Below, one piece after another: positions 5,968 through 55,975 of a stretch of DNA of 64,000 nt. Source of the stretch: Gammaproteobacteria bacterium (GTDB lineage Bacteria; Pseudomonadota; Gammaproteobacteria; Ga0077554; Ga007554). The notes beneath the pieces are model-generated. The model worked only from the letters and a program-made list of their open reading frames with translations. It was not told the origin of the DNA and made no database searches. The position numbers and the translations under genes were made by a program. The number at the start of each line of letters is the position of its first letter. The stretch's first letter is position 1. The stretch spans positions 124,001 to 188,000 of the forward strand of contig JAKFXX010000006.1 of assembly GCA_021731145.1 (NCBI GenBank), read 5' to 3'.

Positions 5968-8044
5968 CCAGCGTCACTGGCTGCCGCTGTTTGTCGACTT
6001 TGAGGGTAAGCCCTGCCTCATCGTTGGCGGCGGTGTCATCGCTGCACGCAAGGCGCAGCGCCTCCTCCTGGCGGGGGCGCGGCTGACTGTCGTTGCCCCG
6101 GAGTTGGGGGCAACGATGGCGGCGCTCGTCGCCGATAGCAAGATCATCCACCACTGCCGCAGATATCAGGGCAGTGATCTCGAAGGCCATATGCTCATCG
6201 TCGCCGCCACTGACGATGAGTCACTCAATGCCGCCATTGCCGCAGCCGCCCATGCACGCGATATTCCTGTCAACGTCGCGGCTCCCGGTCATTTAAGCAC
6301 GGCTACCCTGCCCAAAGTGATTGACCGCGCGCCCGTGCAGATCGCCATCTCCAGTGGCGGCGCATCACCGGCGCTGATGCGACAACTCAATCGTCATGTC
6401 GCAGCGCTGATTCCACAAGCCTACGGTGATCTGGCAGCACTGCTGGCCGAGTTCAGAGATGAAATCATTGCACGATTTGACGATGCCGAAGAGCGCCGTC
6501 ACTTTCATGATTCGATTATCGCAGGCCCCATTGCCGAGCAGATATTCACCGGCCAACAGGCACTCGCGCGCCAAACGTTACAGGAGGCCATCAGACAAGG
6601 CATGTCGCCGGCATCGGGCGAAGTCTATATTGTTGGCGCCGGACCTGGTGACCCAGAGCTGTTAACGCTGCGCGCCCTGCGTCTGATGCAGAAGGCCGAT
6701 GTGGTGGTCTACGACCGTTTGATCGGACCAAAGGTGCTCGAACTGTTGCGCTCAGATGCCGAGCGCTATTACGTCGGCAAGGCCCGCGACAACCACGCCC
6801 GCACCCAGGATGAGATCAACCAGCTGCTGGTGGTACATGCACGTGCAGGCAAGCGCGTGCTACGCCTGAAGGGCGGCGACCCGTTCATGTTTGGTCGCGG
6901 TGGTGAAGAGGTCGGAACATTGATGGCGGCGAAGATCCCCTTTCACGTCGTGCCCGGCATCACTGCCGCCACCGGCTGCGCCGCCTATGCCGGAATTCCG
7001 CTCACACATCGCGAGATGGCGCACGCCTGCATCTTTCTGACAGGCCATTTCTCTGATGGCGAAACTCATGTTGACTGGCGCTCACTGGCGCAGCCCCACC
7101 AGACTCTTGTCTTCTACATGGGTGTCTACAATCTGAAAAAGATTTGCGATCGTCTGCTGGAATATGGCATCGCCCCAACAACGCCTGCCGCTGTTGTGCA
7201 GAACGGCACTCTGCCAAATCAACACGTCATTACCGCCACCGTCGGCACACTCAGCAGTCAGCCGGCTATTGATCACTCAATACCGGGGCTGGTGATCGTT
7301 AGCGAGACAGTAAAACTGAGCCCCCATTATCTGCCGCCAACCGAGCGCAGTGAACCTGCCACCGCTACAGCGCCACACTTCACTGCTGCCGACAGAGAGA
7401 GCCTCTACCGCATCATCAGCGCCCGTCGTGACATGCGTCACTTCACGCCCAACACAAAGGTCGATGATGAGGTCTTCGCCCGCATACTGCGCGCCGCGCA
7501 TCAATCCCCCTCTGTTGGTCTGATGCAACCCTGGCGCTTCATGCGCATTCGCGATGAAAGCCTGCGCGCGCGTATCGCTGAACGGGTATCTTCCGAACGA
7601 GACGCGACGGCCGGCGCCCTGGGCGAACACGGATCGGAGTTCCTGAGGCTCAAGGTGGAAGGCATACGTGAGTGCGCTGAACTATTGGTGGCCGCACTTG
7701 CCCCCGACGACGGTACCGTGTTCGGCCGCCGCACCATGCCGGAAGAGATGGCGCTGTGTTCTGTGGCCTGCGCCATCCAAAACCTGTGGCTCGCCGCCCG
7801 TGCCGAGAACCTGGGCATGGGTTGGGTCTCGATGTTCGACCCTGCGGCACTGGCCCAGCTACTGAAGATGCCGCCGGGCAGCAAGCCCGTGGCGATTCTC
7901 TGTCTGGGACCGGTGGATACGTTTTATCCGGCACCGATGTTGGAACAGGAAGGTTGGCGGCAAGGGCGGCCCTTGCACGAGCTGGTGTTTCGTGACAACT
8001 GGGGTAATACGCTCACCGGGCAGAGATCGGAAGAGCAGCCATGA
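5954..8044 (+). CDS. CysG-BluB fusion: siroheme synthase plus 5,6-dimethylbenzimidazole synthase
   Basis: This 696-residue protein has three parts. Residues 1-210 are precorrin-2 dehydrogenase/ferrochelatase (CLIVGGGVIAARKAQRLL, VAATDDESLN, SSGGASPALMRQL). Residues about 215-460 are uroporphyrinogen-III C-methyltransferase (VGAGPGDPELLTLRALRL, RLKGGDPFMFGRGGEE, VPGITAATGCAAYAGIPL). After a 20-residue linker, residues about 480-690 are a BluB flavin domain (RRDMRHF, AAHQSPSVGLMQPWRF, AIQNLWLAARAENLGMGW). BluB cleaves reduced FMN with oxygen to make the lower ligand of B12. A GTG at 5942 is possible, but the ATG at 5954 puts WLPLFVDFEGKP where CysG normally begins. The gene overlaps its neighbours by 14 and 4 nt. 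Confidence 0.92.
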   Translation: MPKLNQRHWLPLFVDFEGKPCLIVGGGVIAARKAQRLLLAGARLTVVAPELGATMAALVADSKIIHHCRRYQGSDLEGHMLIVAATDDESLNAAIAAAAHARDIPVNVAAPGHLSTATLPKVIDRAPVQIAISSGGASPALMRQLNRHVAALIPQAYGDLAALLAEFRDEIIARFDDAEERRHFHDSIIAGPIAEQIFTGQQALARQTLQEAIRQGMSPASGEVYIVGAGPGDPELLTLRALRLMQKADVVVYDRLIGPKVLELLRSDAERYYVGKARDNHARTQDEINQLLVVHARAGKRVLRLKGGDPFMFGRGGEEVGTLMAAKIPFHVVPGITAATGCAAYAGIPLTHREMAHACIFLTGHFSDGETHVDWRSLAQPHQTLVFYMGVYNLKKICDRLLEYGIAPTTPAAVVQNGTLPNQHVITATVGTLSSQPAIDHSIPGLVIVSETVKLSPHYLPPTERSEPATATAPHFTAADRESLYRIISARRDMRHFTPNTKVDDEVFARILRAAHQSPSVGLMQPWRFMRIRDESLRARIAERVSSERDATAGALGEHGSEFLRLKVEGIRECAELLVAALAPDDGTVFGRRTMPEEMALCSVACAIQNLWLAARAENLGMGWVSMFDPAALAQLLKMPPGSKPVAILCLGPVDTFYPAPMLEQEGWRQGRPLHELVFRDNWGNTLTGQRSEEQP

Positions 8045-50265: not shown

Positions 50266-50361
50266 CGGTAGTCTCACAGACCTTGATAATTTTGGGGCAC
50301 TAGACTAATCTGGCTTAGCTAGGTGACTAAGTCCAATCAATCCCAGAAGAGTAATGATGCC

Positions 50362-50589
50362 ATGCCGACGATAGTGAATGTGCACGATGCTAAAACCCAC
50401 TTCTCGCGTCTTCTTGAAAGGGCACACGCTGGCGAAGAAATCATTCTTGCCAAGTCTGGCAAACCCTACGCCAAACTTGTGCCGCTCGACACCCACAAGG
50501 AACGCACACCCGGCATAGCAAAAGGAAGGGTAACCGATGCGTTTTTTGAGCCATTGCCGCCGGAAGAGCTGGAGGCGTGGGAACAATGA
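50362..50589 (+). CDS. Phd/YefM-type antitoxin
   Basis: The 75-residue protein begins MPTIVNVHDAKTHFSRLLER and has the GEEIILAKSGKPYAKLVPL block of the Phd/YefM family, which binds DNA with its N-terminus and the toxin with its C-terminus. It overlaps the PIN-domain gene by 4 nt. An earlier in-frame start at 50323 is possible but has no clear support. Confidence 0.92.
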   Translation: MPTIVNVHDAKTHFSRLLERAHAGEEIILAKSGKPYAKLVPLDTHKERTPGIAKGRVTDAFFEPLPPEELEAWEQ

Positions 50590-50972
50590 GGGTGCTGCTC
50601 GACACCCACGCACTGCTGTGGTGGCTGTTCAATGATCCCAAGCTTTCGCAACTTGCACGGGATCTGATTAAAGAGCCTGGTAACACCGTCCTGATGAGCA
50701 GTGCCTCAGCCTGGGAGATAGCGACCAAGTACCGCTTAGGAAAATTACCCGAAGCAGGGGAGGTTGCCCAAAATTTGCCAGAGCTGCTGCGCACGGCGCG
50801 GATAGACGTGTTACCCATATCTGTAGAACATGCGCTGGCCGCCGGCCATCTCCCTGGGCCACACCGCGACCCTTTTGACCGCATGCTGATCGCCCAGGCC
50901 CAGCTTGAACGGATACCTATCATCACCACGGATGGCGAATTTTCAAAATACGACGTTCAAATCATGTGGTGA
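50586..50972 (+). CDS. PIN-domain toxin of the VapC type
   Basis: The 128-residue ribonuclease has the four acidic PIN residues in RVLLDTHALLWWL, SASAWEIATKYRLGKL, PFDRMLIAQAQ and PIITTDGEF. Paired with the Phd-type antitoxin upstream it forms a complete type II toxin-antitoxin module. The likely target is RNA, but which RNA is unknown. Confidence 0.93.
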   Translation: MRVLLDTHALLWWLFNDPKLSQLARDLIKEPGNTVLMSSASAWEIATKYRLGKLPEAGEVAQNLPELLRTARIDVLPISVEHALAAGHLPGPHRDPFDRMLIAQAQLERIPIITTDGEFSKYDVQIMW

Positions 50973-51058: not shown

Positions 51059-51391
51059 CTACCTTGCTGCGCGCCGTTTCGCCTGCCGTGGGATGAGTTC
51101 GATCTTGAGTGTACAGCCCACCGCATCGGCATACTTCTTGAGCGAAGCCACAGACGGCGCATGCTTTCCGGTACTTTCAAGGCGCGAAACCGCGCTCTTC
51201 GTAGTGCCCATACGAACAGCGACAGCTTCTTGAGTAAGGCCCGCGCGAGTGCGTGCGGACAACATTTCGCGCGCAAGCGCGTACTCAGCCTCAAGAGCGC
51301 CATAGGCTTCACAAAAGCCACGGCGTTTCGAGACTTTATCGAGGAAAACTTTTTGATCATGTGCCACAGTGTCGTATTTAAGTTCAGCCAT
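51059..51391 (-). CDS. XRE-type antitoxin (HigA-like)
   Basis: The 110-residue protein has a helix-turn-helix at about residues 45-75 (RAGLTQEAVAVRMGTTKSAV) followed by VASLKKYADAVGCTLKIEL, typical of HigA/XRE antitoxins encoded after their toxin. It overlaps the toxin gene by 8 nt. It probably represses its own operon. Confidence 0.88.
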   Translation of the reverse strand: MAELKYDTVAHDQKVFLDKVSKRRGFCEAYGALEAEYALAREMLSARTRAGLTQEAVAVRMGTTKSAVSRLESTGKHAPSVASLKKYADAVGCTLKIELIPRQAKRRAAR

Positions 51392-51647
51392 TTCGTATCT
51401 CCTTCATTCGCTTGCGCGCAAGCTTGATCTCTTGAGAACAGTAGAACGCTCTTCCAATGCCCGATTTACCACGCGGACGTAATTCGAATAATCCATCCCC
51501 AAAGGCGCGTGGGTGGGGAAGGCGCAAATTCGGACCGAATTCGAGAAGGAGTTCGGCAATTTTTGCGTAATCAGCAACTACATCCACGGGCCAGGATTCG
51601 ATCTCTGCTTGCACCCTTGGATGAAAATATTCGATGGAATAGACCAT
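51384..51647 (-). CDS. RelE/HigB-like toxin with apparent internal deletion
   Basis: The 87-residue product matches the Gp49/HigB toxin family at its start (EAEIESWP-like QAEIESWPVDVVADYAKIAE, LFELRPRGKSGIGRAFYC) and at its end (EIKLARKRMKEI). The segment normally between, a strand with the KKTQKTP-type turn of about 20 residues, is missing. The frame is intact, so the deletion was in frame. The protein is likely inactive or altered. Start ATG at 51647 (MVYSIEYF). Confidence 0.75.
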   Translation of the reverse strand: MVYSIEYFHPRVQAEIESWPVDVVADYAKIAELLLEFGPNLRLPHPRAFGDGLFELRPRGKSGIGRAFYCSQEIKLARKRMKEIRNG

Positions 51648-51854
51648 GCGAAAGGTTAGCAAATACGCTAACATTAATCAAGCTCAGGAATACTCACGCT
51701 TTGACAGCTTGAAAAGCACCTTGGCAAACGCACCAGGCAAACAGTTGCAAGCTCACAAAAGCGATGGCAAATGTCCCGATCTTGAGCCGAAGAGTAAAAC
51801 AAGATCTTTGAGCCGTTCCCGGAATAGCCAGGCCATCTTGGCGCCGTGCGCCCA

Positions 51855-52130: not shown

Positions 52131-52217
52131 ACATCCTAAAGTCTTTCCCAGGCATTGCCGTTAATCATTTCGTGCGCTGTTTTTCATGCAGGCACGGCAT
52201 GTTTTGGGAGATGGATA

Positions 52218-53840
52218 ATGCTTGAAAAATGGCTGGCCAACATCAGTTGGCGGAAAAAGATTTTGGGGCTTTCTGGCCTGTTTGTTCTGGGCATTACCGG
52301 CGTTGGCCTGTTCGGCGGTTACACCATCTATCACCAAAACCACACCATACAGGCCGCACTCAGCGAATCACAGAAACGCGTGGAGGCGGCCACGAACGCC
52401 CAGGTTGCCATTCTGTCGATGGCCAAGGCCCAGGCACAGATCATTGCAGCGCAGGAACCTGTGGACATCCGCAGAGCAGCCATTTCAGCCATCAAGGGTG
52501 CGGCACTGCTTGACGAAAACATTCAACACCTGGGAACCACCCTGAAGGGGCGGCCGGAGGTTGAAGAGCTTATCAAGCTGCTGACGGAAATGAAGCCCAT
52601 ATCGCTGGAGGTGATTAAGGCGGCGCGCGCAAACGACGACGTACTGGCGATAGGAAAGAGCAAGGAAATGCTCGGTTCCATGAATCGTGTCGAGGAACTA
52701 TCGGGCAATCTCGTAACACACGAGCGCACGACCTTAACTGCTCGCATGGCGGAGCAGATAACGGAAGGAAAGCGCGTTATTGTCATGCTGGGGATTCTTG
52801 TCGGGCTTGGGATTGTGATTGGCATAATAGTCAGCCTGTTTGCCGCCCATATGGTCACAAAACCCTTGTCATCCCTGGAAAGCTCCATGGCCGCTCTGGC
52901 AACCGGCGACTTAAACATAAAACTCGCCAACGCGGGCAAGGATGAAATCGGCAGGACTATCAATGCCATGTCCCGAACCGTGGTCAATCTGCATGACATT
53001 GTCGAAAGAATTCATCAGGGGGCTAGCCAATTAACCATCAAGGCCCAGAATGTCAGCCACACGGCGGACAACATCCGCGGGGTCTCGACAACATTGCATG
53101 GCAACGTCAGAAACATCAAGGATGATGTCACCATCGCACTGGACAAAACCAGCCAGGCTGTAACCCAATTGGAGCAGGCCGCCGATAAGGCACAGAAAAC
53201 CTCGGGAAACGCCCAGCAAAACGCAGCCGAAATCAGGGAAGCTGTAATTAGCTTTGAGCGTTTCCAGGGGAATATGGAGAACACTGCGTCAGGCACGCGC
53301 GACCTTGCAAAAGCCGCAGAAACCATTACCGCCATCACCAAAACCATCCGCGATATCTCGGCTCAAACCAACCTGCTGGCACTGAATGCCGCCATCGAGG
53401 CGGCACGTGCCGGGGAACAGGGCCGGGGCTTTGCTGTGGTGGCCGACGAGGTGCGTGCACTGGCGAAAAGGACGGAGAATGCCACCGGAGAAATTTCCAC
53501 TTCGGTAGATACCATTTCCAATAGCGTAAAACACACTGTCGGATTATTGGAAACCTCCGTTGCAGAGGCCCGCAAAAATATCGCGCGATTGCAAAACGTC
53601 GCGGATGAAACAGCCACCAGCAGCACACAAACCAGCCTCATGAGTAACACCATGATCGAAGTGGTAGATCTGATCAGTGAACAGGAAAAAGCGCTTAATG
53701 GCATCAACGCTTCGATCAGCGGCCTGCTCGAGTTAAGCAGGGAAACCAACGATCAAACCGACATATTGAATAACCTGGCGCATACATTGAATGGTTCGGC
53801 GACCGACTTGAATAACGTGGTCGACAGGTTCAAGTTATAA
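52218..53840 (+). CDS. Methyl-accepting chemotaxis protein
   Basis: The 540-residue chemoreceptor has two membrane helices (about 15-37 and 193-217), a small periplasmic helical sensor between them, a HAMP domain ([20 protein letters not shown]) and the cytoplasmic signalling tip [20 protein letters not shown] then [18 protein letters not shown]. The ligand cannot be predicted. The ATG at 52218 fits the first helix; an earlier start at 52155 is inside the transposon remnant. It ends 106 nt before the peroxidase operon. Confidence 0.92.
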
Positions 53841-53946: not shown

Positions 53947-54981
53947 GTGAAGCACAGCAACACCAAGAGCAGGAAACACATTGGGGCCGTCGTTGCGGCT
54001 CTGCTCGGCGTATCCAGTGTCTTTTATTCACCCTTTGGCGGGACTGGAGAGGCGGATCCTTATCTGCGTCCGGATATCGCGCCTGCCCCGGCAGATAACC
54101 AATTGACCCCCGACCGCGCCGAGCTTGGCAAGATACTGTTTTTTGACCCACGTTTGTCAGGGTCCAACTGGATAAGCTGCACCACATGCCATAACCCGGC
54201 GCTCGGTTGGTCGGATGGATTGCCCACGGCAATTGGTGTTGGTATGAAGACACTCCACAGAGCAACCCCCACGATTCTGAACACTGCCTACAACAGGATC
54301 CAGATGTGGGACGGCCGCGCGCCGAGCCTGGAAGAACAGGCGACCGGCCCTATCGTGTCGCCGGATGAAATGAACCAGAATCTGGATGATTTGGTCAAAG
54401 AGTTGTCCGCCATTCCCGGTTACAAGGAGTTGTTTGAAAAGAGCTATCCTGGTGAAGGCATCAGCAAGCAAACCATTTCAAAGGCCATCGCCAGCTTCGA
54501 AAGAACAGTGGTGTCGACGGAATCCCCCTTTGACAAGTGGCGCAAGGGAGACAAGAAGGCGGTGAGTGAACCAGTAAAGCGCGGATTTGTTTTATTCGAA
54601 GGCAAGGCCAATTGCGCCGCTTGTCATCAAGGATTTAATTTTGTTGATAACGGCTTCCATAATATTGGCCTGAAGAAGACAAGTGATGCCGAAGACGAAG
54701 GAAGGTTCGCACACAAGAAAGTTAAAGTGCTGAAAGGCGCATTCAAAACCCCCACACTGCGCGACATTGCCCTCACCGCGCCCTATATGCACAATGGCGT
54801 ATACAAGACATTGGAAGAAGTCGTGGATCATTACAACAGCGGCGGAGAGAATCAGGAAAACCCCGACCCCAACCTGAAGCCGCTTAATTTAACGGATCAG
54901 GAGAAGGCCGACCTGGTGGCCTTCCTGAAAAGTCTCACTGGAAAACACATAACCATGACTGTCCCCCAGTTGCCGAATTAA
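53947..54981 (+). CDS. Diheme cytochrome c peroxidase family protein (CcpA/MauG type)
   Basis: The 344-residue periplasmic protein has a signal peptide, two heme c sites (CTTCH at 78-82 and CAACH at 223-227) and the family segments LGKILFFDPRLSGSN, NRIQMWDGRAPSLEEQA and FKTPTLRDIALTAPYMHNG. Classical members reduce hydrogen peroxide with electrons from cytochrome c or cupredoxin; MauG relatives oxidise proteins. The start is GTG at 53947 after TAGGAGGAAG. It heads a three-gene operon with a cupredoxin and a diheme cytochrome. Confidence 0.92.
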   Translation: MKHSNTKSRKHIGAVVAALLGVSSVFYSPFGGTGEADPYLRPDIAPAPADNQLTPDRAELGKILFFDPRLSGSNWISCTTCHNPALGWSDGLPTAIGVGMKTLHRATPTILNTAYNRIQMWDGRAPSLEEQATGPIVSPDEMNQNLDDLVKELSAIPGYKELFEKSYPGEGISKQTISKAIASFERTVVSTESPFDKWRKGDKKAVSEPVKRGFVLFEGKANCAACHQGFNFVDNGFHNIGLKKTSDAEDEGRFAHKKVKVLKGAFKTPTLRDIALTAPYMHNGVYKTLEEVVDHYNSGGENQENPDPNLKPLNLTDQEKADLVAFLKSLTGKHITMTVPQLPN

Positions 54982-54995
54982 AGGAGATTGATTCA

Positions 54996-55334
54996 ATGTT
55001 TACATTCAACATGAAAAAAGCCGGATTTTTACTGTTCGCCGCCTGGCTGCCGACAACACAGGCCGCAGAGGTTGAGCTAGGACAGCAAAACAAATCCTTC
55101 GTCAATAATGGTCAAAAGGTAGAGCAATTGAAAATAAAGGCTGGAGATACGATTCGTTTCAAGAATTATGACCCTTTTTTTCATAATGTATTTTCACTAT
55201 CAGACCTGAAAACATTCGATCTTGGATCCTTCCCCAAAGGGGATTCACGCACCGTGACCTTTGACAAGAAGGGAGCTGTAGACGTCGAGTGCGCCATCCA
55301 CCCGCAGATGCAATTGAAGCTCGAGGTTGAATAA
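54996..55334 (+). CDS. Small periplasmic cupredoxin (plastocyanin-like)
   Basis: The 112-residue product has a signal peptide (KAGFLLFAAWLPTTQA) and a type 1 copper site: His63 in FFHNVFS and Cys99, His102 and Met105 in VECAIHPQM. Similar proteins are annotated as methylamine-utilisation-type plastocyanins. It starts 14 nt after the peroxidase gene and overlaps the cytochrome gene by one base, suggesting that it shuttles electrons between them. Confidence 0.9.
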   Translation: MFTFNMKKAGFLLFAAWLPTTQAAEVELGQQNKSFVNNGQKVEQLKIKAGDTIRFKNYDPFFHNVFSLSDLKTFDLGSFPKGDSRTVTFDKKGAVDVECAIHPQMQLKLEVE

Positions 55335-55975
55335 TGAGGCGCGTTACCAGGCAGATGCTGACGGGGGTAGTGCTCTCCATGGGTGTCAGTGGCGCGTGGG
55401 CCACTGACACCCTCGAAGACGTAAAAAGCGAGCATACCAGGCCCGCCATCCGCGGCGGCATCGTTTATAAGTCTTATTGTGTGCTTTGTCATGGGGCAGT
55501 GGCGAACGGTGATGCCAAAGCCGCGAAACTGTATGGCGTTGCCACCCTTGCCATTAAACCCATGTCTACGGAGTACTATGAAAAAATCATCCGTGGAGGC
55601 GGGCCAGCCGTTGGTAAAGCGCCCTATATGCCGCCTTGGCAGGAAGAGCTGTCGGATGAGCAAATAAAAGATGTGGTCGCTTATCTGGGTGTGGTAAGTA
55701 ACGCCGTCGGGCGTGGCGAGGTGGTCTTCAAGACCAATTGCGTACTCTGCCACGGCGTAAAAGGAGATGGTAAGGGGCGGGCATCGGTTTTGTTCGATCC
55801 GCCTCCGGCCAATCTGACCAGGAGTGACAAAAACGACGAATACAAAACGATGATCATCACCATGGGCGGGGCGGCGATGGGACGTTCACCGGTGATGCCG
55901 GTGTGGGGAGAGCAATTATCCACACAGGAGATCAATGATGCAGTGGCTTATCTTAGGACGATCCTTGTGAAATAG
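55334..55975 (+). CDS. Periplasmic diheme cytochrome c
   Basis: The 213-residue protein has a signal peptide ending near Ala23 and two class I cytochrome c domains. Each has CVLCH (49-53 and 135-139) and a downstream methionine ligand region (PYMPPWQEELSDEQI and PVMPVWGEQLSTQEI). The domains resemble each other, which suggests internal duplication. It is the last gene of the redox operon and probably links it to the respiratory chain. Confidence 0.93.
   Translation: MRRVTRQMLTGVVLSMGVSGAWATDTLEDVKSEHTRPAIRGGIVYKSYCVLCHGAVANGDAKAAKLYGVATLAIKPMSTEYYEKIIRGGGPAVGKAPYMPPWQEELSDEQIKDVVAYLGVVSNAVGRGEVVFKTNCVLCHGVKGDGKGRASVLFDPPPANLTRSDKNDEYKTMIITMGGAAMGRSPVMPVWGEQLSTQEINDAVAYLRTILVK

Follow-up and report, generated by a model that had tools for sequence, protein, structure and literature searches.

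A MauG-like diheme enzyme, a cupredoxin and a diheme cytochrome c encoded in one unit with a chemoreceptor: a possible periplasmic redox-sensing system for chemotaxis

What does a tyrosine-ligated relative of MauG do when its gene stands with those of a copper protein, a cytochrome c and a chemoreceptor? The question is raised by a locus in a 64,000-nucleotide stretch of a gammaproteobacterial genome (contig JAKFXX010000006.1 of assembly GCA_021731145.1, positions 124,001 to 188,000; this whole stretch is the window here, and its genome is G000 in the genome searches). Bacterial sensing of redox state and peroxide beyond the inner membrane is little understood; to our knowledge CCP_MauG proteins with a tyrosine heme ligand mostly lack an assigned role outside mau clusters. 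A preliminary description of the window had singled out the enzyme, cupredoxin and cytochrome genes as a three-gene redox operon with a chemoreceptor directly upstream. The open reading frames bear out the coordinates and the spacing of 14 and −1 nt, the linkage of the trio recurs in relatives, and Pfam matches to CCP_MauG, Copper-bind and Cytochrome_CBB3 agree with the proposed combination of a copper protein and a duplicated cytochrome c alongside a CcpA/MauG-type enzyme. The chemoreceptor is present where it had been placed, with MCPsignal and HAMP matches, but it is not a mere neighbour: its gene belongs to the same unit as the other three (Table 1). We tentatively read the four genes, in a proposal that may well be right but could as readily fail, as one periplasmic redox-sensing unit for chemotaxis, in which a redox relay would feed a transducer with a four-helix-bundle sensor.

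Table 1. Features of the four-gene unit in the window
Feature	Position	Strand	Basis
Chemoreceptor (methyl-accepting chemotaxis protein, MCP), 540 aa	52218..53840	+	Pfam MCPsignal 1.8e-32, HAMP 9.6e-8
Membrane and periplasmic sensor part of MCP, 204 aa, family A1	52242..52853	+	
MauG-like diheme enzyme, 344 aa	53947..54981	+	Pfam CCP_MauG 2.1e-58; start GTG, AGGAGG ahead
First heme motif CTTCH; His82 = MauG His35	54178..54192	+	alignment
Second heme motif CAACH; His227 = MauG His205	54613..54627	+	alignment
Tyr296 at MauG Tyr294 ligand position (Met in peroxidases)	54832..54834	+	alignment, not structure
Small cupredoxin, amicyanin/plastocyanin type, 112 aa	54996..55334	+	Pfam Copper-bind 1.2e-5
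His63, first copper ligand	55182..55184	+	assigned by motif
CAIHPQM with copper ligands Cys99, His102, Met105	55290..55310	+	assigned by motif
Diheme cytochrome c, two tandem CBB3-type domains, 213 aa	55334..55975	+	Pfam Cytochrome_CBB3 3.7e-25, two stretches

Relatives of the enzyme were gathered by sequence similarity in a locus search, from which 80 of 89 loci were kept, and in further searches of 56 relative genomes, 398 genomes of the phylum, 369 of the class and 385 from the class to which genome G164 belongs. All 37 rows of the 369-genome search and all 14 from G164's class were taken; the phylum search gave 53 rows, with 14 left out, all under 240 bits; and the 56 relatives supplied four clade rows and a choice of lower-scoring ones. 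L114, L115 and L247 were added by hand from plasmid lists, the duplicates L148 and L207 were dropped, and other close relatives were counted separately. The class of G164 is called alphaproteobacterial by inference from named relatives (Sphingomonadales for L043, Rhizobium for L115) and a 67% DNA match to Ensifer plasmids. A gene was counted as in the run when it lay within four genes of the enzyme gene on the same strand with gaps of up to 350 nt, and the clade of close relatives was set at 290 bits or more (n = 60 enzyme genes).

A signal transducer was found in the run in 45/60 of these close relatives (41 MCPs, two GGDEF/EAL proteins and two histidine kinases), a cupredoxin in 50/60 and a cytochrome of the window's type in 32/60. 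Under 290 bits only five of 161 rows had a transducer in the run, or 5/54 when the mostly Bacteroidota loci L045–L113 are set aside (L056 kept). These five were L056, L164, L169, L243 and L247; L056 and L243 score low because the genes are split, and L247 falls inside the clade in the tree. The difference between 45/60 and 5/54 gave a Fisher p of 3e-13, a value that ignores shared ancestry. When genes on either strand within four genes were counted, chemoreceptors alone stood at 43/60 versus 2/54 and cupredoxins at 50/60 versus 7/54. Eight Met-ligand paralogues from genomes with a clade enzyme (L185, L186, L188, L190, L191, L196, L199 and L200) had no transducer in the run. A chance gene cluster is ruled out by this comparison of relatives with distant homologues. 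The preliminary description had proposed such a survey and held that its reading would fall if the enzyme reduced peroxide normally with unrelated donors and the three genes showed no conserved linkage; the linkage is conserved. Its suggestion of a MauG-type system whose substrate gene is simply missing is not supported. Of the additional partners, a signal transducer is the most constant, and the upstream chemoreceptor is therefore a key gene of the system and not background. As it had noted, no dehydrogenase gene was recognised beside the window's unit (relatives were not checked for one).

The window's receptor consists of a transmembrane helix (TM1), a periplasmic four-helix sensor, a second transmembrane helix, HAMP and a signalling domain, and most likely starts at the ATG at 52218, not at the TTG at 52155, since its orthologues begin near the same residue. 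Its sensor defines a family, A1, in which 24 related sensors align, 23 of them 204 aa long and free of gaps. The AlphaFold2 model of the sensor is a four-helix bundle (mean predicted local distance difference test score (pLDDT) 87.0, predicted template modelling score 0.67), whose nearest solved folds include receptor domains such as those of Vc1313, MCP2201, PcaY_PP and Tar, with TM-scores of up to 0.82 on the target length; no match was found at E <= 0.001 in this fold search. The protein thus has the four-helix bundle, HAMP and signalling domain of a 4HB chemoreceptor, and the Pfam 4HB model was not reported for it. Among 28 chosen genomes in which all 3–18 candidates per genome were scored, the A1 sensor was found in one copy in 19 and was absent from nine. 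When up to nine candidates per genome were scored in 350 genomes of the class, 22 matches were found, each in a different genome. Twenty of these 22 lie on the contig of the enzyme gene, 0.08–2.2 kb from it, 19 of them on its strand; a 21st, in G452, has the enzyme gene alongside, interrupted by Ns. One of the twenty, in G672 (L216), is only a 52-residue sensor piece beside the enzyme gene. In the last genome, G682, no enzyme gene occurs on the stretch read and a multiheme cytochrome gene lies just upstream. Adjacency is not independent in many of the 22 genomes, because they supplied A1 rows; the informative part of the search is that no genome holds an unlinked second copy. The A1 sensor family is nearly confined to the enzyme operon. 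Of the 34 enzyme-bearing genomes from the 369-genome search, 14 gave no A1 match in the 350-genome search, and these two samples are possibly not identical.

Conservation along the A1 alignment amounts to 2.6–2.8 bits per column in helix 2 and the two tips, 2.5 in helix 3 and 2.1 and 2.0 in helices 1 and 4. The conserved membrane-distal half of the bundle is weakly suggestive of a docking surface; as proof of docking it was rejected, TM1 scoring equally high at 2.7 bits.

A second sensor family, A2, was built from ten receptor sensors, eight of them from G164's class, which share a YDxPLMxINxARSA stretch and keep one Trp in 10/10. Scoring up to ten candidates per genome in 289 genomes of this class gave 31 matches in 29 of them. 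The four best were enzyme-linked loci already in A2, and the matches in G058 and G082 lie near the enzyme loci L169 and L167. The remaining 25 loci encode mostly kinase-like transducers by weak matches, together with one MCP and one GGDEF-EAL protein; the L249 transducer is a hybrid kinase by Pfam. No enzyme gene was present among the four neighbours on each side in any of the 25, and a cupredoxin gene was found within four genes in 19, next door in 16. Among the next-door cases a short opposite open reading frame intervenes in L265, and the cupredoxin copy of L255 ends before the copper motif. No cupredoxin lies within four genes in L248, L256, L263, L268, L270 and L271, of which L248 ends at a contig edge. 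Unrelated transducers used as a control had a cupredoxin beside them in 0/8 cases, too few for a background rate. Because cupredoxin genes stand near A2 sensors without the enzyme, these data suggest that A2-type sensors have the cupredoxin, and not the enzyme, as their direct partner.

The window's enzyme was aligned with Paracoccus MauG, Methylobacterium MauG and MbnH. His82, Trp121, Gln131, Pro135, Glu141, His227 and Tyr296 align with His35, Trp93, Gln103, Pro107, Glu113, His205 and Tyr294 of Paracoccus MauG. The distal residues Gln131 and Glu141 are retained both here and in the 22 sequences of the comparison. The preliminary description had proposed the tyrosine ligand as the mark that separates MauG from peroxidases, and this residue is present, at the position of MauG's distal ligand to the six-coordinate heme; the Met ligand of the high-potential heme of peroxidases is absent, Tyr296 standing in its place. 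Across 129 tree rows this column holds Tyr in 107, Met in 21 and Phe in one, and the two further CCP_MauG genes of the window's genome (L185 and L186) both have Met. MauG Trp199 corresponds to Ala221 in the window's enzyme, and it proved useless as a discriminator because Methylobacterium MauG also has Ala there. On the MauG model TIGR03791 the enzyme scores 341.9 bits, below the cut-off of 443.85, compared with 554.1 for MauG of Methylobacterium DM1 and 282.6–368.0 for eight relatives of the enzyme. A search that detects mauA (PF02975) in both mau plasmids gave no match in G000 and none in 21 further genomes. Since the score lies under the cut-off and no mauA was found, identity with true MauG is ruled out and the enzyme is best termed MauG-like, a designation that rests on sequence comparison. 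It also falls below the cut-off of the MbnH model TIGR04039 (235.8 versus 362.85 bits), and family-model scans, confined to the four proteins that the run encodes, reported none of them as MbnP. The predicted structure of the enzyme (mean pLDDT 79.6) has the ordinary family fold, nearest to bacterial peroxidases, and adds little.

The cupredoxin carries, by motif, the complete His, Cys, His, Met ligand set of type-1 copper and scores 27.2 bits on the amicyanin model TIGR02657, below its cut-off of 110.2. The cytochrome has CxxCH motifs at residues 49 and 136 and reaches 61.4 bits on the CcoP model TIGR00782 (cut-off 179.95). All three proteins of the trio have N-terminal stretches that look, by eye, like export signals. 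Scans found no terminator-like site on the plus strand between the receptor and enzyme genes and no promoter-like site; both results are uninformative.

In a 59-row tree of the enzymes, most transducer-linked members fall into two groups. One contains the window's enzyme (25 rows, support 99/98); the other is mainly alphaproteobacterial (18 rows, support 100/99) and includes Methylobacterium MauG, together with L157, L163 and L167, which have no transducer in the run. The kinase-linked L153 lies outside both groups, and the placement of Paracoccus MauG, whose branch is very long, is unsure. The findings also hint at a possible origin for the Methylobacterium type of MauG. Gene order near the window is mostly MCP, enzyme, cupredoxin and one to three cytochromes, and in alphaproteobacterial loci mostly enzyme, cupredoxin, MCP. 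In Rhizobium sp. BT03 (L115) an MCP gene follows the enzyme gene after 10 nt, and in Ruegeria sp. TM1040 a HAMP-GGDEF-EAL gene follows after 12 nt, so that both strains carry enzyme–transducer gene pairs. Other outputs include a NIT-HAMP-GGDEF-EAL protein (L229), a PAS hybrid kinase (L153), a CHASE3 receptor (L231) and an enzyme-linked receptor with a C-terminal PilZ domain, which binds cyclic di-GMP (c-di-GMP; L235, 8287–10686). The enzyme is fused to a cupredoxin, with the full copper motif at the C terminus, in L240 and L242, and to an N-terminal cytochrome domain in L228; a similar domain in L230 lacks the full heme motif.

The observations are the gene linkage, a sensor family nearly confined to the enzyme operon, the ligand residues, the enzyme–cupredoxin and cytochrome–enzyme fusions and the link of a second sensor family to cupredoxins; as to which oxidant acts, which way electrons flow, how docking occurs and how the cell responds, we infer the following. 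The MauG-like enzyme would react with an oxidant, most likely H2O2 and possibly O2, and would exchange electrons with the cupredoxin and the diheme cytochrome c, which would link it to the respiratory chain; cupredoxins such as pseudoazurin are known donors to diheme peroxidases. Use of the oxidant would alter the redox state of both carriers, and the periplasmic four-helix bundle of the receptor may sense whether the cupredoxin, or the cytochrome, is oxidised or reduced. Readout would probably occur by docking of the metalloprotein, as in binding-protein-assisted 4HB receptors, of which Tar with maltose-binding protein is an example, and the signal would then pass to CheA/CheW. In relatives, comparable input proteins are encoded beside kinases or c-di-GMP enzymes. 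A chemotactic output is credible because the window's genome has two flagellin and 12 CheW matches. If the proposal is true, the redox state of small metalloproteins in the periplasm may guide the swimming of some bacteria. That one operon encodes a dedicated receptor together with a copper protein and a diheme enzyme makes this a concrete, testable hypothesis. A wider claim is possible, though we hold it to be doubtful: that in Pseudomonadota a periplasmic blue-copper protein generally acts as the redox-gated protein ligand for transducers with a four-helix bundle, be they chemoreceptors, histidine kinases or c-di-GMP enzymes, that the MauG-like enzyme is a peroxide- or oxygen-driven input to one branch, and that Methylobacterium MauG and amicyanin were recruited from this stock.

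Several observations weigh against the proposed sensing unit. No transducer lies in the run in 15/60 close relatives (L034, L205, L208, two in L212, L216, L221, L222, L223, L149, L227, L114, L213, L206 and L044); L114 is a true MauG, and in L223 a receptor gene lies divergently upstream. L034, from the same genus as the window, keeps enzyme and cupredoxin without a transducer, and L115, L154, L155, L232 and L239 are receptor-linked yet have no cupredoxin in the run. The looser count for any transducer gives 49/60 versus 17/54, a contrast that shrinks because kinases and GGDEF/EAL genes are common, and it raises the Met-ligand paralogues to 1/8 through the window genome's own L185, which has a GGDEF-EAL gene beyond an opposite gene. 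Sensor types vary among relatives (4HB, NIT and CHASE3), so that no single docking surface can fit them all. The A2 sensors do not resemble those of A1, and evidence from them therefore bears on the window by analogy only. Finally, a published Leptospira trio is described with no receptor mentioned in the portion of the paper available (PMC13066512), so the trio may work alone.

That Leptospira listing also favours the strongest competing explanation, an ordinary peroxide-reducing chain in which cytochrome or cupredoxin feeds a diheme peroxidase and the receptor is only co-inherited or co-regulated, sensing another cue, for example in escape from the oxidant. The retained distal Gln131 and Glu141 and the predicted fold closest to bacterial peroxidases are consistent with such a chain, as is the presence in Rhizobium sp. 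BT03 of katG and a peroxide-inducible regulator gene some 4.5 kb away from the enzyme–receptor pair. We nevertheless consider it rather unlikely, given that Met-ligand peroxidases lack a transducer in the run (0/8), that the A1 sensor is nearly confined to the enzyme operon, and that cupredoxin genes adjoin A2 sensors at loci without the enzyme.

Protein modification of the MauG/MbnH type, in which the enzyme would oxidise residues of the receptor, cupredoxin or cytochrome and so make a sensing cofactor, is improbable. The Tyr ligand and MauG-like distal residues would suit it, as would the grouping of Methylobacterium MauG with the mainly alphaproteobacterial transducer-linked enzymes (100/99). 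Against it stand the absence of a mauA match in G000 and the replacement of MauG Trp199 by Ala221, though Methylobacterium MauG shares that change. Columns 29–177 of the A1 alignment contain no Trp, Tyr, Cys or His shared by as many as half of the 24 rows, and Trp/Tyr cross-linking of the window's receptor was rejected because these sensors lack a common residue of that kind in their periplasmic part. Met is common at column 60 (20/24), column 122 (16) and column 143 (15), which leaves room for Met oxidation, and the Trp kept in A2 sensors leaves room for modification in that family. We give as little chance to a Tar-like receptor for a small molecule that the enzyme and electron carriers would consume or detoxify. 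The closest sensor folds are mostly small-ligand domains (Vc1313, MCP2201 and PcaY_PP) and Arg77 is kept in 23/24 A1 sensors, yet no gene for a dehydrogenase was recognised beside the unit, and across relatives the redox proteins persist as outputs and sensor types vary.

Compared with known systems, the component families are familiar, and the MauG-like/cupredoxin/cytochrome trio is already in print for Leptospira, as far as the available text of PMC13066512 goes. There the mauG1-petE-cytochrome c genes of L. interrogans are described as a putative "mau-like" operon whose expression falls strongly in a host model; consecutive locus tags belong to a gene annotated as MauG, to petE (a "methylamine utilisation protein") and to a cytochrome c, a likeness at the level of annotation. 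The authors read methylamine utilisation and, in that text, mention no receptor. Tyr-bearing MauG-like proteins of Leptospira are noted in the available part of PMC10294975. MauG itself, the tryptophan tryptophylquinone synthase of Paracoccus and Methylobacterium, shares the diheme fold, the Tyr ligand and the equivalents of Trp93, Gln103, Pro107 and Glu113, and mau clusters have an amicyanin gene nearby where the window has a cupredoxin gene; the window's enzyme differs in its score under the model cut-off, the lack of a mauA match in its genome and the receptor gene found instead. CcpA and the bacterial cytochrome c peroxidases resemble it in fold and distal residues but have Met on the second heme where it has Tyr, and its own Met-type paralogues have no transducer in the run. 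MbnH, likewise a Tyr-ligand diheme enzyme paired with a copper protein (MbnP), differs in that the window's enzyme is 34% identical to a Methylocystis MbnH, falls below the MbnH cut-off and has a small cupredoxin as partner. Tar/Tsr-like 4HB chemoreceptors share the periplasmic four-helix sensor, HAMP and signalling domain, whereas the candidate protein ligand here is a redox metalloprotein from the same operon. Chain 6nx0, which we take to be BthA, matches the window's enzyme best over residues 34–99 only. Burkholderia BthA is a Tyr-ligand diheme enzyme from genomes without a conserved mau operon, according to the accessible part of PMC6405878, but the words "chemotaxis" and "copper" are absent from that text. 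Acidithiobacillus has a pair of diheme cytochrome c and cupredoxin, but in a respiratory chain and with no receptor mentioned in the portion of PMC5982212 available. No linkage of a receptor to a MauG-like gene or a cupredoxin is reported in the available text of PMC6405878, PMC8218464, PMC5829616, PMC7726332, PMC13066512, PMC2147049, PMC10294975, PMC10468136, PMC4853749 and PMC9938260. The transducer link and the pairing of cupredoxin with four-helix bundle were thus not met in the open-licence literature examined, as far as these partial texts go, which does not establish their absence from print.

Some loci show further features. In L034 the receptor gene and most of the cytochrome gene are gone, and cytochrome-like remnants match at 7322–7543; an apparent conserved MCP upstream in this locus, and a second one in L035, proved by eye after alignment to be GroEL. 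L212 has two tandem MauG-like gene copies with a cupredoxin and a cytochrome and no receptor. The lower-scoring relatives L167, L180 and L170 have a cupredoxin gene nearby on the opposite strand, with a GGDEF-EAL gene adjoining in L167 and L180, possibly a looser form of the same pairing. At L244 (6542–9001, minus strand) an A1-type receptor without the enzyme adjoins a multiheme cytochrome gene with a Cytochrome_C554 match, as if another redox protein had replaced the enzyme. The katG and hydrogen-peroxide-inducible regulator genes of Rhizobium sp. BT03 occupy 1–1440 of L115. In the window itself, upstream of the unit, a Phd/YefM antitoxin gene overlaps a PIN-domain gene at 50323–50972 on the plus strand, likely a type II toxin-antitoxin pair, and a Gp49-like gene followed by a helix-turn-helix gene at 51059–51674 on the minus strand is probably a second such pair, which we take to resemble HigBA.

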